Source: Blastococcus sp. LR1
Lineage (GTDB): Bacteria; Actinomycetota; Actinomycetes; Mycobacteriales; Geodermatophilaceae
Length of the DNA: 64,000 nt
Direction of reading: 5' to 3'
Assembly: GCF_020166105.1 (NCBI RefSeq)
Contig: NZ_JAIUJY010000002.1
Location: 682,001 to 746,000 of the forward strand
Below the pieces are notes generated by a model that saw nothing but the letters and a program-made list of their open reading frames with translations, was not told where the DNA came from and did not search any database. Shown in pieces: positions 35,362-59,430 of this stretch; position 1 is the first letter of the stretch; the number at the start of each line of letters is the position of its first letter. Made by a program: the position numbers and the translations under genes.

Positions 35362-36405
35362 TCAGCGGGTGACGGTGGAGGCGTGCTCGTTGGTGCCGGC
35401 GGCGAGCCGCTCGCGCTGCGGGAGAACGACGTACTTCGGGTCCTTGGTGCTGGCGATGCCGGCCTCGAAGACGCCGAAGCGGGTGAGCAGCGAACCGGCC
35501 GCGAGAAGCGTTCCTGACGCAATGGCGCCCACCCGGGTGCGCCCGGCGATCGCGGCCAACCCGGCGCCCGCGGCGGTCGTCGTCTTCGCTGCCTGCATCA
35601 GCTTGCCGGGGCGTCCCTCGTGGAACGGCTCGCTCAGGATGCCGTGGTCGGTCTCGACCTTGTGCATCACGGCCAGCTCGATCGCCGCGCCCGTGATCGC
35701 CATCTTCCGGGCCGGTCCGGCCTCGTCGACCGGCACGAAGATCATCGAGATGCCGCCACCGGCAGCCATCGCCGAGCCGCCGAAGACGAACGGCAGCTGC
35801 TTGTAGGCCGCGTGCCACGACGGCACGGCGGTGTTGGCCAGCAGCACGCCGGTGTAGGTGGCCAGCGGCCCGCCGAAGATGGCGGACACGATGCCCCCGA
35901 AGCGCTCGAGCCGCGGGAACCAGCCGAGAAGCTCCACCGCCGCCGTCGCCCCGGCCGCCGCGCTGAACGGCGACAGGATGTAGGTGCCGACCGACAGCGG
36001 CGACGTCAACTTGAACACCCGCAGCATGTGCAGGAACCGCTCGGGCCGGCCGAGGTCGTGCACCAGGGCGACCACCGAGAGCAGCGACCCGATCGCCGCG
36101 GTCATCCGGCCCACGCGGGTCAGCTTCGGCCGGTCGGTGAAGTCGGCGACCGCCGCCAGGATCGACGACGAACCCGCAGCACCGCCGAGGAACAGGTAGA
36201 GCGGCACGTCCGGCGACTTCCACACCGGCGTCTTGACGATCTGCCGGCCGTAGTACGAGGTGAACTCGACGTCGTCGACCATCGCGACCTCGCCGCGGTT
36301 GCGGCCGCCGCCGCGCTTGCGCCGCTTGCCGCTCTTGCGCTGCGTCGCCGGGCCGCTGTCGGCCTGGCGCCACCCCGCACCGGGGCTGGTGATCCCGCCG
36401 GTCAT
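35362..36405 (-). CDS. NrfD/PsrC-type membrane subunit of formate dehydrogenase
   Basis: A 347-residue polytopic subunit that exchanges electrons with menaquinone. The region from about 55 on has eight or so helices, with VPLYLFLGGAAGSSSILAAV at the first and VHDLGRPERFLHMLRVFKLTSPLSVGTYIL typical of NrfD-family quinone-site loops. The first 45 residues are hydrophilic and basic. ATG 36405 follows the stop of the Fe-S subunit by one base. It takes the place of the cytochrome b subunit FdnI of E. coli FDH-N. Confidence 0.9.
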   Translation of the reverse strand: MTGGITSPGAGWRQADSGPATQRKSGKRRKRGGGRNRGEVAMVDDVEFTSYYGRQIVKTPVWKSPDVPLYLFLGGAAGSSSILAAVADFTDRPKLTRVGRMTAAIGSLLSVVALVHDLGRPERFLHMLRVFKLTSPLSVGTYILSPFSAAAGATAAVELLGWFPRLERFGGIVSAIFGGPLATYTGVLLANTAVPSWHAAYKQLPFVFGGSAMAAGGGISMIFVPVDEAGPARKMAITGAAIELAVMHKVETDHGILSEPFHEGRPGKLMQAAKTTTAAGAGLAAIAGRTRVGAIASGTLLAAGSLLTRFGVFEAGIASTKDPKYVVLPQRERLAAGTNEHASTVTR

Positions 36406-36406
36406 G

Positions 36407-37477
36407 TCAGCGCCTCCGCGAGCCGAGGACGGCCGAGACCGCGACCCCGATCATCATCGCCGCAGCCGTGCCGGCCGCCTTCCACATCGCCGGGAGGTCC
36501 CGGGTCGTGACGATCGGGTCCGGCGGCAGGCCGTAGACCTCCGGCTCGTCGAGGAGCAGGAAGAACGCCCCGTCGCCGCCGACGCCGTCGTTCTCGTCGC
36601 GCCCGTACAGCCGCGCCGTCTCCACGCCCTGCGACTTCAGCGTCGCCAGCCGGGCGTCGGCGCGCTCCTGGAGCTCGTCGAGGTCGCCGAACTGGATCGA
36701 CTGCGTCGGGCACGCGGTGGCGCACGCCGGCTGCAGCCCGTCGGTCAGCCGGTCGTAGCACATCGTGCACTTGAAGACCCGGCCGTCGTCCTTGCGCTGG
36801 TCGATGACGCCGTAGGGGCACGCCGCCACGCAGTAGCCGCAGCCGTTGCAGATGTCCTGCTGCACCACGACGGTGCCGAACTCGCTGCGGAACAGCGCGC
36901 CGGTCGGGCAGACGTCGAGGCAGCCGGCGTGCGTGCAGTGCTTGCAGACGTCGGAGCTCATCAGCCAGCGGATCTGCTTGTCCGCGCCGGTCTGGCCGGT
37001 CTGCGGGTCGAACTCGCTGAGCGCCTCGATGTTGAGCACGCTGGCCTGCGCCTTGGCGGTGCTGTCCAGGTCGCCGCTGTCGGGCGCCGGGATGCCGTGC
37101 TCGTGCGGCCGGTCGTCGCCGGGCCGCCCGAAGGTCGGCATCGGCAGGTCGACGGCGCGGGACTGCTCGATGAACGCCACGTGCCGCCACGAGTTGGCGC
37201 CCAGCTGCCCGGTGTTGTCGTACGACATCCCCGACAGGCCCAGGGCGTCCCGCTCACCGTGCGAGTCGTCCATCGGGAGCGTGTTCCACTCCTTGCAGGC
37301 CACCTCGCAGGCCTTGCAGCCGATGCAGACCGAGGTGTCGGTGAAGAAGCCGACCCGCTTCGGGTGGTCGGGCTCGTACCCGGCCTCCTCCGCGACGTCG
37401 GGCAAGGGCCCGAACAGCCGGTTCTTGACGTCGCGCAGGCCACCGAGGCCCGGACTGGCGGAACTGACCGAGGTCAC
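36407..37477 (-). CDS. Formate dehydrogenase iron-sulfur (beta) subunit
   Basis: A 356-residue ferredoxin-like subunit passing electrons from the molybdopterin subunit to the membrane subunit. Four cysteine clusters are visible: CIGCKACEVACKEWN, CKHCTHAGCLDVCPTGAL, CNGCGYCVAACPYG, and CTMCYDRLTDGLQPACATACP, enough for four [4Fe-4S] centres. A C-terminal helix (AAGTAAAMMIGVAVSAVLG) anchors it as in FdnH. It is 25 bases downstream of the alpha gene. Confidence 0.94.
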   Translation of the reverse strand: MTSVSSASPGLGGLRDVKNRLFGPLPDVAEEAGYEPDHPKRVGFFTDTSVCIGCKACEVACKEWNTLPMDDSHGERDALGLSGMSYDNTGQLGANSWRHVAFIEQSRAVDLPMPTFGRPGDDRPHEHGIPAPDSGDLDSTAKAQASVLNIEALSEFDPQTGQTGADKQIRWLMSSDVCKHCTHAGCLDVCPTGALFRSEFGTVVVQQDICNGCGYCVAACPYGVIDQRKDDGRVFKCTMCYDRLTDGLQPACATACPTQSIQFGDLDELQERADARLATLKSQGVETARLYGRDENDGVGGDGAFFLLLDEPEVYGLPPDPIVTTRDLPAMWKAAGTAAAMMIGVAVSAVLGSRRR

Positions 37478-37502: not shown

Positions 37503-40500
37503 TCATGAGATCGTCGAGCCCTCTCCGGCGTCGGCGGCGACCGGGTCGCGGCCGTTCACGCCGACCTTCCCCGACTGCACGCCGGCGCGACGGCGGAAGC
37601 CCTCGACGAACTCCAGCAGCTCCGGCCCCCGCGGACGGCGGCCCGGGATGATGTCGCAGGAGCTGACCTTCGACTCCTGGATGTGGGTGTTGGGGTCCAT
37701 CACGATGCCCAGCAGGTCGTTGGCGGCGTCTCCGGTGGAGATGCCCGCGTAGGACCAGTGGTAGGGCATGCCGATCTGGTGCACGACGGTGCCGTCGCGC
37801 AGCCTGATCGGCCGGACCCGCTCGGTGACCAGCACCTTCGCCTCGATCGCCGTGCGGGCGCTGACCAGCGTCGCGTACTCGTTGTTGGCCAGTCCGCGCA
37901 GCTTCGCGAGCTCCGGGCTGACCTCCACGAAGAACTCCGGCTGGAGCTCGGCGAGGTAGGGCAGTGTGCGGCTCATGCCACCGGCGGTGTGGTGCTCGGT
38001 GAGCCGGTAGGTGGTCACCTGGAACGGATAGACCTCGCTGCGCGCGGGGTTCGCCCGGTTCCACGGGCCCTCGATCATCTCCAGCGTCGGGTTGGCCTGC
38101 TGCTTGTACAGACCGTTCTCGACGACGGACTCGGCCGGCTCGTAGTGCGTCGGCAGCGGCCCGTCGACGACGCCGCCCGGCGCGAACAGCCACGCCTTGC
38201 CGTCGCCCTGCATGACGAACGGGTCGTTGCCGGCCAGCGCGTCCTGCGCCTTGGCACCCTCGGGCGGCACGTAGTCCGGGCGCTTCTTCTTCTCGAAGTC
38301 GGGCACGTCGAGGCCGGTCCACTCACCGGCGGCCTCGTCCCACCACACGTACTTCTTGCGCTCGCTCCACGGCTTGCCGTCGGGGTCGGCCGAGGCGCGG
38401 TTGTAGAGCATCCGCCGGTTCAGCGGCCACGCCCAGCCCCACTCCGAGGCCACCGGGCCCTGCTCCTTGCCCGGCTTGCGCCGGGCGGCCTGGTTGACGC
38501 CATCGGCGTAGACGCCGGAGTAGATCCAGCAGCCGCCGCTGGTCGAGCCGTCGTCCTTCATCTCCAGGTAGGAGTTCAGCAGCTGGCCGTCCGGACCGAA
38601 GCCGTTGATCTCCTGCAGCACGTGCTCGGCGCTGGGCTCGAGCTCGGGACCGTGCGTCGGGTAGTCCCAGGTGAGCTCGAGCAGCGGGAGGTCCCGGGGG
38701 TCCGTGGAGTCCTTGAGCCGCTCGCGCAGGATGCGACCGAGGTGGAAGTAGAACCACAGGTCGCTGCGGGCGTCGTTCGGCGGCTCGACAGCCTTGTGCC
38801 GCCACTGCAGCACCCGCTGGGTCTGGGTGAAGGTGCCTTCCTTCTCCACGTGCGTGGCGGCCGGCATGAAGAAGACCTCGGTGCCGATCGTGTCGGGGGC
38901 CATCTCCCCCGTCTCGATCTCCGGGCCCTCCTTCCAGAAGGTCGCCGACTCGATCATCTGCAGGTCGCGGACGACCAGCCAGTCGAGGTTGGCCAGGCCG
39001 AACCGGTTCATCCTGCTGTTCGGGTGGCCCACCGTGGGGTTCTCGCCGACCAGGAAGTAGCCGGAGACCTTCCCCTTGATCATGTCGGCGATCGTCCGGT
39101 AGCTGCTGTGGTCGCCGTTGATCTTGGGCAGGTAGTCGAAGGCGAAGTCGTTCTCCGCCGTCGCGTTCTCGCCCCACCAGGCCTTGAGCAGGCTGACCAT
39201 GTACGACTTCTTGTTGCCCCAGAAGCCGGCCTTGCCCTCGGCGTCGGCGACGTACTCCTCGAGCGTCGCGTGCTGCTTCGCGTGCGGCATCGGCAGGTAG
39301 CCGGGCAGCAGGTTGAACAGCGTCGGGACGTCGGTGGAGCCCTGGATGCTGGCGTGCCCGCGCAGCGCCATGATCCCGCCGCCGGGACGGCCGATGTTGC
39401 CCAGCAGCGTCTGCAGGATCGAGCAGGTGCGGATGTACTGCGCGCCGACGCTGTGCTGCGTCCAGCCCACGGAGTAGATCCACGCCGTCGTCCGGTCGCG
39501 GTTGCTGTTGTCGGTGACCCACTTCGCCACCTGCTCGAAGACCTCGGGCTCGACGCCGCAGACCTCGGACACCATCTCCGGGGTGTAGCGGGCGAAGTGC
39601 CGCTTGAGGATCTGGAACACCGAGCGCGGGTGCTGCAGCGTCTCGTCGCGCTTGGGCTTGGCCGCTATCGGCGGACCGCCGCTGCCGGACGCCTGGGCGC
39701 GGTCGGCCGACTTCACGTCGGGGTCCTGGTCGGTCCGCTCCTGCTCGGCGGCCTCGGCCGGCTGGTCGGAGCCCGAGTTCGGCGGCTCCTCCGGCTCGTA
39801 CTGCCAGCTCGCCTCGTCGTACTGCCGGTTCTCGGCGTCGAAGCCGGAGAACAGGCCGTCGAGGTCCTCGGAGTCGACGTACTCCTCGCCCACCAGGGCG
39901 GCGGCGTTCGTGTAGGCGGCGACGTACTCCTTGAAGTACAGCTCGTTGCTCAGCACGTAGTGGATCAGGCCACCGAGGAACGCGATGTCCGTGCCGATGC
40001 GCAGCGGGACGTGCAGGTCCGCGATCGCACTGGTCCGCGTGAAGCGAGGATCGATGTGGATGATCTTCGCGCCGCGCGCCTTGGCCTCACCGACCCACTG
40101 GAAACCCACCGGGTGGCACTCGGCCATGTTCGAACCCTCGATGACGATGCAGTCGGCGTTCGAGAGGTCTTCCAGGAAGTTCGTGGCACCGCCACGACCG
40201 AACGAGGCACCCAGACCGGGCACCGTCGCAGAGTGCTATATGCGTGCTTGGTTCTCGATCTGCACGGCGCCCATCGCGCTGTACAGCTTCTTCATCAGGT
40301 AGTTCTCTTCGTTGTCCAGCGTCGCGCCGCCGAGGCTGGCCAGCCCCATGGTGCGGTTCACGCGCTTGCCGCCGTCCTCCTCCTGCCAGCCCTTGCGGCG
40401 GGCGTCGAGGACGCGGTCGGCGATCATCTCCATCGCCGTGTCGAGCTCCAGGTCCTCCCACTCCGTCCCGAACGGACGGCGGTACTTGACCGTGGTGACG

Positions 40501-40805
40501 CGGGTGGGGCTGGTGACCAGCTGCTTGCTGGCGCTGCCCTTGGGGCACAGCCGGCCGCGGCTGATCGGCGAATCGGGGTCGCCCTCGATCTGCGTGATCT
40601 TCTCGTCCTGGACGTACACCTTCTGGCCGCAACCCACGGCGCAGTAGGGGCAGACGCTCTTGACGACGCGGTCAGCGGTGGCGGTACGCGAGACGACGGA
40701 CTCGGTCCCCTTGCTGCGGGCGGCCTTGCCACGCCCCAGCGGGTCCGAGCCGGTCAGCTGGCGGTACACCGGCCAGCTATCGAGCCAGGTCTTCACCCCC
40801 AGCAC
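37503..40805 (-). CDS. fdhA: Selenocysteine formate dehydrogenase alpha subunit, UAG recoded as Sec
   Basis: A molybdopterin enzyme oxidising formate to CO2. Read through one in-frame TAG (40236-40238), the frame gives 1100 residues, close to the family's length. The N-terminal [4Fe-4S] site is C52, C55, C59, C87 (CPYCAVGCGQ...CPKG). The TAG is codon 190, in the context NQARI-[stop]-HSATVPGLGASFGRGGATN, exactly where E. coli FdnG has selenocysteine (position 196 there). After it the protein continues NMAECHPVGFQW and the Mo-bis-MGD domains. A bSECIS-like hairpin follows the codon. UAG-directed selenocysteine is documented in Geodermatophilus and Blastococcus. Start GTG 40805 (GGGTGG upstream) or GTG 40796. 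No twin-arginine signal is seen, so a cytoplasmic catalytic side is likely. Annotated naively it would appear as two genes, 40239-40805 and 37503-40223. Confidence 0.93.
40206..40238 (-). promoter_or_regulatory. bSECIS element with UAG selenocysteine codon
   Basis: On the minus strand TAG is followed by 11 bases and then a hairpin: GGTGCCC (40224-40218), loop GGTCT (40217-40213), GGGTGCC (40212-40206). The seven pairs include two G-U wobbles. From memory of the E. coli fdhF element, the SelB-recognised loop has GGUCU at the same distance from the codon (bases 22-26 counting the codon as 1-3). The codon context TAG-CAC parallels UGA-CAC there. Confidence 0.85.
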
Positions 40806-58979: not shown

Positions 58980-59342
58980 GGGGGAGCTCCTCGACGCCTT
59001 CGACCGCGGCGGGAAGTACCGCGGTGTGATGCAGAAGTTACGGCCTCCGGGGGCTCCGACCGGCCGGTTCCGAGCCACTCCCGACCGGCCCGTCACCGGA
59101 TCGTTGCGGCGCACCCCGGGACACCCCGGTGACCCCTCCCCCAGCCCGGCGTCATGTCGACATGAGCGGGCTTGACCTGCGGAAACGCGCCTGTTCTCCC
59201 CCAGTTGCACCGACGGTGACGTGCCCGCCCGGCCGGTCGCGGCGCGTCGCGCGATGCGGCGTTCTGCGCGTCCCGGCGATGTGCGGCGCGGGCGCGTTCC
59301 GGAGGCCGGGATGCGCCCGTCGCGCACATCGCCGGACAGGGG
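58980..59342. other. Intergenic stretch before tRNA-Ser
   Basis: No gene recognised. It contains the 14-base perfect palindrome TCATGTCGACATGA at 59152-59165, a possible regulator site. The rest has GC-rich sequence without a convincing frame. Confidence 0.4.
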
Positions 59343-59430
59343 CGGAGGGCGTGGGATTCGAACCCACGAAGAGGGATTACCTCTTAGCGGTTTTCAAGAC
59401 CGCCGCCATCGGCCACTAGGCGAGCCCTCC
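59343..59430 (-). tRNA. tRNA-Ser (anticodon UGA)
   Basis: A full class II tRNA on the minus strand. The acceptor arms are GGAGGGC at the 5' end (59430-59424) and GCCCTCC near the 3' end (59350-59344), with discriminator G at 59343. The anticodon arm reads GCGGT-CTTGAAA-ACCGC, giving anticodon TGA. A long variable arm and the T-arm GTGGGTTCGAATCCCAC are present. The 5' half is repeated at 63554-63593. Confidence 0.95.

Follow-up and report, generated by a model that had tools for sequence, protein, structure and literature searches.

Selenocysteine (Sec) encoded by UAG is a known exception in the Geodermatophilaceae (PMC5330540). As cited there, the use of UAG for Sec in this family was reported by Mukai et al. 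(2016, Angew Chem), and Santesmasses et al. (2017; PMC5330540) described a bacterial selenocysteine insertion sequence (bSECIS) after the UAG of AhpC. An artificial counterpart exists in Escherichia coli, in which the combination of UAG, tRNA-Sec(CUA) and the fdhF SECIS yielded approximately as much active selenoenzyme as the UGA/UCA pair (PMC3834832). In that engineered system these components sufficed with SelB unchanged, although good yields needed overexpressed sel genes. The consensus model of the bSECIS comprises an apical loop of 3-9 nt with G among its first two positions, an upper stem of 4-16 bp, a distance of 16-37 nt from the Sec codon to the apical loop, a free energy of -7.5 kcal/mol or lower and UGA as the Sec codon (PMC13188914). 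Within the hairpin, E. coli SelB requires an unpaired, bulged U17 plus G23 (PMC8659212).

The hairpin considered here lies in a formate dehydrogenase (FDH) gene of the soil bacterium Blastococcus sp. LR1, within a stretch of 64,000 nucleotides that was analysed as a whole (the window). It is a genuine bSECIS that belongs to the published UAG-Sec system. It shares with that system the bacterial family, the CUA tRNA-Sec and the occurrence of UAG in FDH and UGSC proteins; covariation over 116 genes and the repeated recoding of FDH genes are derived here. The AhpC case from the literature could not be recovered here: a search for the AhpC family in the genus gave no TAG-containing member among the matches listed.

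The formate dehydrogenase operon and its in-frame UAG

The window carries an FDH operon on the minus strand, encoding catalytic, iron-sulfur and NrfD-type membrane subunits. Its features, in window positions, are as follows:

37503..40796, minus strand: FDH catalytic subunit gene with the UAG read through (NF041513, 1915.9 bits; Pfam molybdopterin domains)
40236..40238, minus strand: UAG, selenocysteine codon (residue 245 of the longest open reading frame; aligned with the UGA of E. coli and actinobacterial FDHs)
36407..37477, minus strand: FDH iron-sulfur subunit (Pfam Fer4 domains)
35362..36405, minus strand: FDH NrfD-type membrane subunit (Pfam PF03916/PF14589)

The catalytic subunit matches the family NF041513 (formate_DH_Act), and its GTG start at 40796 is a guess from homology. 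The frame has a single interruption, the UAG at 40238-40236, followed by 910 open codons, and FDH homology continues in open frame on both sides of it. Alignment with E. coli fdhF and actinobacterial outgroups places the UAG at the Sec position of the homologues. An FDH with UAG is present in 98 of the 112 genomes of the family, as counted manually from a table, and FDHs from outside the family have UGA in all cases among the matches listed. In one genome (G169) a TAG is listed beside TGA, but it sits upstream of the gene and was discarded.

The hairpin downstream of the UAG

Nucleotides are numbered from the U of the UAG (nt 1, window position 40238), so that nt n lies at 40239 - n. From the UAG onwards the minus strand reads UAG CAC UCU GCG ACG GUG CCC GGU CUG GGU GCC, in which two elements are distinguished:

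40206..40224, minus strand: upper hairpin of the bSECIS, nt 15-33 after the U of UAG, GGUGCCC-GGUCU-GGGUGCC (sequence, fold, covariation in 116 UAG and 41 UGA genes)
40213..40217, minus strand: apical loop GGUCU, nt 22-26 (same positions in E. coli fdhF)

GGUGCCC at nt 15-21 pairs with GGGUGCC at nt 27-33 through seven pairs, two of them G-U, and nt 15-33 alone have a predicted folding energy of -10.4 kcal/mol. The preliminary description of this locus had given the coordinates, fold, loop and spacing of the hairpin correctly; the hairpin proper occupies 40206-40224, and 40225-40235 is the spacer between UAG and stem. Measured against the consensus model, the loop has 5 nt and begins with two G residues (G22 and G23), the stem has 7 bp, the distance from codon to loop is 18 nt (nt 4-21) and the energy of nt 15-33 lies below the threshold. 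UAG in place of UGA is the sole departure, and the hairpin is therefore filed as a UAG variant of the bSECIS and not as a standard one. Since nt 22 and nt 26 can pair (G-U here, A-U in other copies), the loop may in effect be a triloop of G23, U24 and C25.

A 7-bp stem in this register occurs at 0.19% of the offsets of the window, both strands included; a GGUCU loop is present at a single one of these offsets and a preceding TAG likewise at a single one, in both cases the site at 40206-40224. An Rfam scan of the window gave a tRNA as its sole match and no bSECIS match. A covariance model of the FDH hairpin run over the whole genome of the strain had this site as its sole match (E 5.5e-9); the candidates that came next had E values of 0.07 and worse, and none of the best three, which were inspected, was a UAG selenoprotein site.

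The similarity to E. coli had been proposed in the preliminary description, and GGUCU is indeed found at nt 22-26 of fdhF of E. coli K-12 (NC_000913.3), where the UGA is codon 140. The two elements have in common the GGUCU at nt 22-26 with its G23 and U24, and the distance from the Sec codon. They differ in that fdhF has a bulged U17, which the predicted fold leaves out of the stem, a pair A21-U26, a loop of GGUC and a UGA codon, whereas the Blastococcus hairpin has a continuous stem with U17 paired, a GGUCU loop or GUC triloop, and a UAG codon. In the genes compared, a partner for U17 (G31 or A31) is available in 105 of 106 UAG sequences and in all 37 UGA sequences, with no bulge in the stem. 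The likeness to E. coli thus concerns the loop and the distance, and not the whole of the SelB binding site.

Beyond the hairpin, CGU stands at nt 43-45 (40194-40196) in 99 of 116 UAG FDHs, in comparison with 2 of 41 UGA FDHs; elsewhere CGU makes up 8.6% of Arg codons. A possible second hairpin, CGUGGC-GGU-GCCACG at nt 43-57 (window 40182-40196), is present in many UAG genes.

Conservation and covariation of the stem

FDH genes were gathered from the 112 genomes of the family, from 80 named genome contigs and from 20 more of the same order. The pairs 18-30, 19-29, 20-28 and 21-27 are kept in all 106 distinct UAG genes of one set, and in the larger set the silent bases 18 (wobble of Val) and 30 (wobble of Gly) are paired in 116 of 116 distinct UAG genes, as G-U in 61, C-G in 36, G-C in 13 and U-A in 6. 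When the UAG genes were shuffled, 18-30 was paired in a mean of 60.6 and a maximum of 80 in 10,000 shuffles. All 41 UGA genes likewise have 18-30 paired (U-A 26, C-G 10, U-G 5), against a shuffled mean of 34.7 and maximum of 40. One gene (L144) has exchanged C21-G27 for G21-C27 through two silent changes. Pair counting in 41 distinct sequences found 98.3% of cells paired, compared with 87.6% after shuffling and 31-60% in slid registers, and the covariation score for 41 distinct sequences was 0.308 vs 0.115, none of 500 shuffles scoring as high; the UGA set alone was consistent by pair counting but gave weaker support. Because shuffle tests are inflated by related sequences, changes at the two silent bases were also counted on a tree, which requires at least 22 at base 18 and at least 27 at base 30, indicating that pairing has been maintained across many separate changes. 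The covariation across the FDH genes of the family that the preliminary description had called for, and whose absence would have told against it, is hence present.

The loop is constrained in a similar manner. G23 and U24 are invariant, as is U26 in FDH, and nt 22 is either G or A, with A in 15 of 61 UGA genes and in 1 of 116 UAG genes. Wherever Gly is encoded in the loop its codon is GGU, a codon used for 12% of Gly residues in the rest of the gene.

Conceivably, the stem could be a by-product of the conserved peptide HSATVPGLGAS combined with GC-rich codon usage, with readthrough of the UAG requiring no SECIS. Conservation of the peptide is indeed high, and 9.7% of synonymous resamplings contain a 7-bp stem, but stem and GGUCU together appear in 1.1%. 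Moreover, the pairing is carried by the wobble bases 18 and 30, which always compensate for one another and do so in rare codons: Val is GUU in 31 of the 41 UGA genes although in the rest of the gene GUU encodes 0.9% of Val residues, and GGA forms 5% of its codon family elsewhere. The same geometry is also seen in the unrelated UGSC protein, as set out below. This explanation is already contradicted and is regarded as very improbable; judged from sequence variation, the stem after the UAG is a real, evolutionarily tested signal. The strong covariation at silent sites indicates that the selenocysteine hairpin is independent of which stop codon is recoded.

Relationship to UGA-type hairpins and to SelB

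The UGA-type bSECIS elements of actinobacterial FDHs (Streptomyces, Actinomadura, Pseudonocardia and others) share the register and the pairs from 16-32 to 21-27 with the UAG hairpin, and their loops are GGUCU or AGUCU. They differ in having a UGA codon, preceded mostly by AUU or GUU, and the lowest pair, 15-33, is absent in 20 of 31 distinct UGA sequences. UGSC proteins (NF041046; L304-L325), which are UAG selenoproteins unrelated to FDH, have a 7-bp stem at 15-21/27-33 and a loop of AGUGU at nt 22-26, the geometry having been judged by eye; one member has an AGUCU loop and a shorter stem. The genome of the strain itself contains no UGSC match. Across FDH and UGSC loops G23, U24 and U26 do not vary, and position 22 holds a purine able to pair with U26. 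One type of hairpin appears to serve UGA across the actinobacteria and UAG in the Geodermatophilaceae, in two unrelated protein families.

On the protein side, the motif T[ST]RRV..P of the C-terminal winged helix of SelB is common to UAG- and UGA-decoding genomes. Judged by sequence, neither the hairpin nor the RNA-binding motif of SelB was altered, relative to the UGA genes of actinobacteria, when UGA gave way to UAG. The earlier proposal that SelB recognition is unaltered holds in this respect, for hairpin and winged-helix motif alike, but does not fully extend to E. coli, where the bulged U17 has no counterpart in the paired, bulge-free stem found here. The UGA and UAG hairpins could serve as a natural test of codon-independent SelB action.

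tRNA-Sec and the proposed decoding of UAG

The genome of the strain has a single tRNA-Sec besides look-alikes (G000:C1:593838-593929, 65.8 bits), with anticodon CUA. Genes for selA, selB and selD, matching TIGR00474, TIGR00475 and TIGR00476 above their cut-offs, flank it on both sides within about 5 kb. An apparent second tRNA-Sec (G000:C2:741344, 49.5 bits) proved to be the tRNA-Ser(UGA) of the window. This gene (59341-59430) scores above the Rfam cut-off for tRNA-Sec and is a trap for automatic tRNA-Sec calling.

Inspection of 31 tRNA-Sec loci of the family found CUA in 23 and UCA in 8. The CUA tRNA-Sec is nearly identical to the UCA tRNA-Sec of sister lineages outside the anticodon arm; within the arm, a stem pair has changed from U-A to C-G beside the change from UCA to CUA. 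The suggestion that only the anticodon had moved is consequently too narrow, given this stem pair and the AUA that precedes the Sec codon in FDH. Lineages g5-g7 of the family (L041-L046, L049; G066, G068-G070, G072-G074) retain a UCA tRNA-Sec and are without a UAG FDH, so the anticodon switch probably took place within the family.

Taken together, the hairpin very probably is a bSECIS inside the FDH coding region that is read by SelB, with the SelB side inherited and the code change located in selC and the Sec codon. SelB-GTP would carry Sec-tRNA-Sec with its CUA anticodon, and the C-terminal winged helix would bind the apical loop at G23 and U24. While SelB binds, the UAG, which precedes the loop by 18 nt, would enter the ribosomal A site, and Sec would be inserted there in competition with RF1. 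Hairpin and SelB side would have come from UGA-decoding actinobacteria, the code having changed in selC (UCA to CUA, together with one pair of the anticodon stem) and at the Sec codon of every selenoprotein gene.

Reading of the UAG as pyrrolysine, or by an ordinary amber suppressor, might be proposed on the grounds that ARAGORN names the CTA tRNA a tRNA-Pyl. That label follows from the anticodon, whereas the gene scores 65.8 bits as a tRNA-Sec with near-identity to the UCA form outside the anticodon arm and adjoins selA, selB and selD, and the UAG occupies the Sec site of FDH; the probability of such a reading is accordingly minimal. The notion that the UAG is a true stop or a sequencing error in a pseudogene, for which nothing speaks except the stop itself, is contradicted by the occurrence of UAG in 98 of 112 genomes with a matching CUA tRNA-Sec and by the intact frame on either side, and has a negligible chance of being correct.

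The preceding codon and probable repeated recoding

Immediately upstream of the Sec codon lies a further candidate element:

40239..40241, minus strand: AUA codon before the UAG, possible context element (invariant in UAG FDHs)

AUA precedes the Sec codon in 116 of 116 UAG FDHs, in comparison with AUU in 35, GUU in 17, AUA in 7 and AUC in 2 of 61 UGA genes, and AUC constitutes about 95% or more of the Ile codons elsewhere in FDH genes. UGSC genes have GAU or GAC before UAG, so AUA is no general rule for UAG, and a requirement for A at -1 at every UAG-Sec is ruled out. Pairing of the -1 base within the folded region was also considered and set aside, as this base is predicted to be mostly unpaired (0.86, UAG genes). 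According to folding predictions, a C or G at -1 would be paired to a greater extent and, in UGA genes, would partly bury the Sec codon, which could explain the avoidance of C and G, but not the choice of A over U.

The UAG FDHs do not form a single clade. Six changes are required on the IQ-TREE tree, a single clade appears in no bootstrap tree and is rejected by the AU test (p 0.003), and well-supported branches alone force three UGA/UAG changes. Second FDH copies (L133-L150) in several genomes have AUA-UAG even though they group with UGA genes from other families. Most simply, this would mean that FDHs were gained on more than one occasion and that each was recoded from UGA to UAG. Well-supported branches provide three independent contrasts, with a mean of 2.6 showing AUA with UAG and none the opposite, which are too few for significance. 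It is tentatively proposed, as a rather unlikely extension, that the preceding codon belongs to the recoding signal and was forced to change with the stop, FDHs being repeatedly acquired and each converted, ending with AUA; an A at -1 perhaps weakens termination by RF1 or keeps the Sec codon unpaired. Repeated recoding of FDH, always with AUA before UAG, is possibly new, no mention of the recoding or of the AUA signature having been found in a literature search that covered sources other than the text of the 2016 report.

Local gene conversion was examined as a source of the UAG in the second FDH copies and was not favoured, since downstream of the codon identity to the resident copy does not clearly increase when compared with UGA outgroups. 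Closer similarity to the resident copy is confined to the 15 nt that immediately precede the codon, and these may represent a very short conversion tract.

In one genome of genus g8 (G079), both FDH copies (L151 and L152) lack the stretch containing the Sec codon and hairpin and have shifted frames. The two deletions differ at the 5' end and almost coincide at the 3' end, and may be a real loss or an assembly artefact at the GC hairpin.

Geodermatophilus sp. LHW52908 (G058) has two tRNA-Sec genes, L040/L153 (G058:C17) and L154 (G058:C11), and, together with the repeated UGA-to-UAG conversions, a genome with both CUA and UCA tRNA-Sec would offer a way to study gene-by-gene change of the code. 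The CUA tRNA-Sec lies about 1.4 kb from the sole selB, and the UCA tRNA-Sec is situated near transposases and a contig end; dual decoding of UAG and UGA as selenocysteine is possible in this organism.
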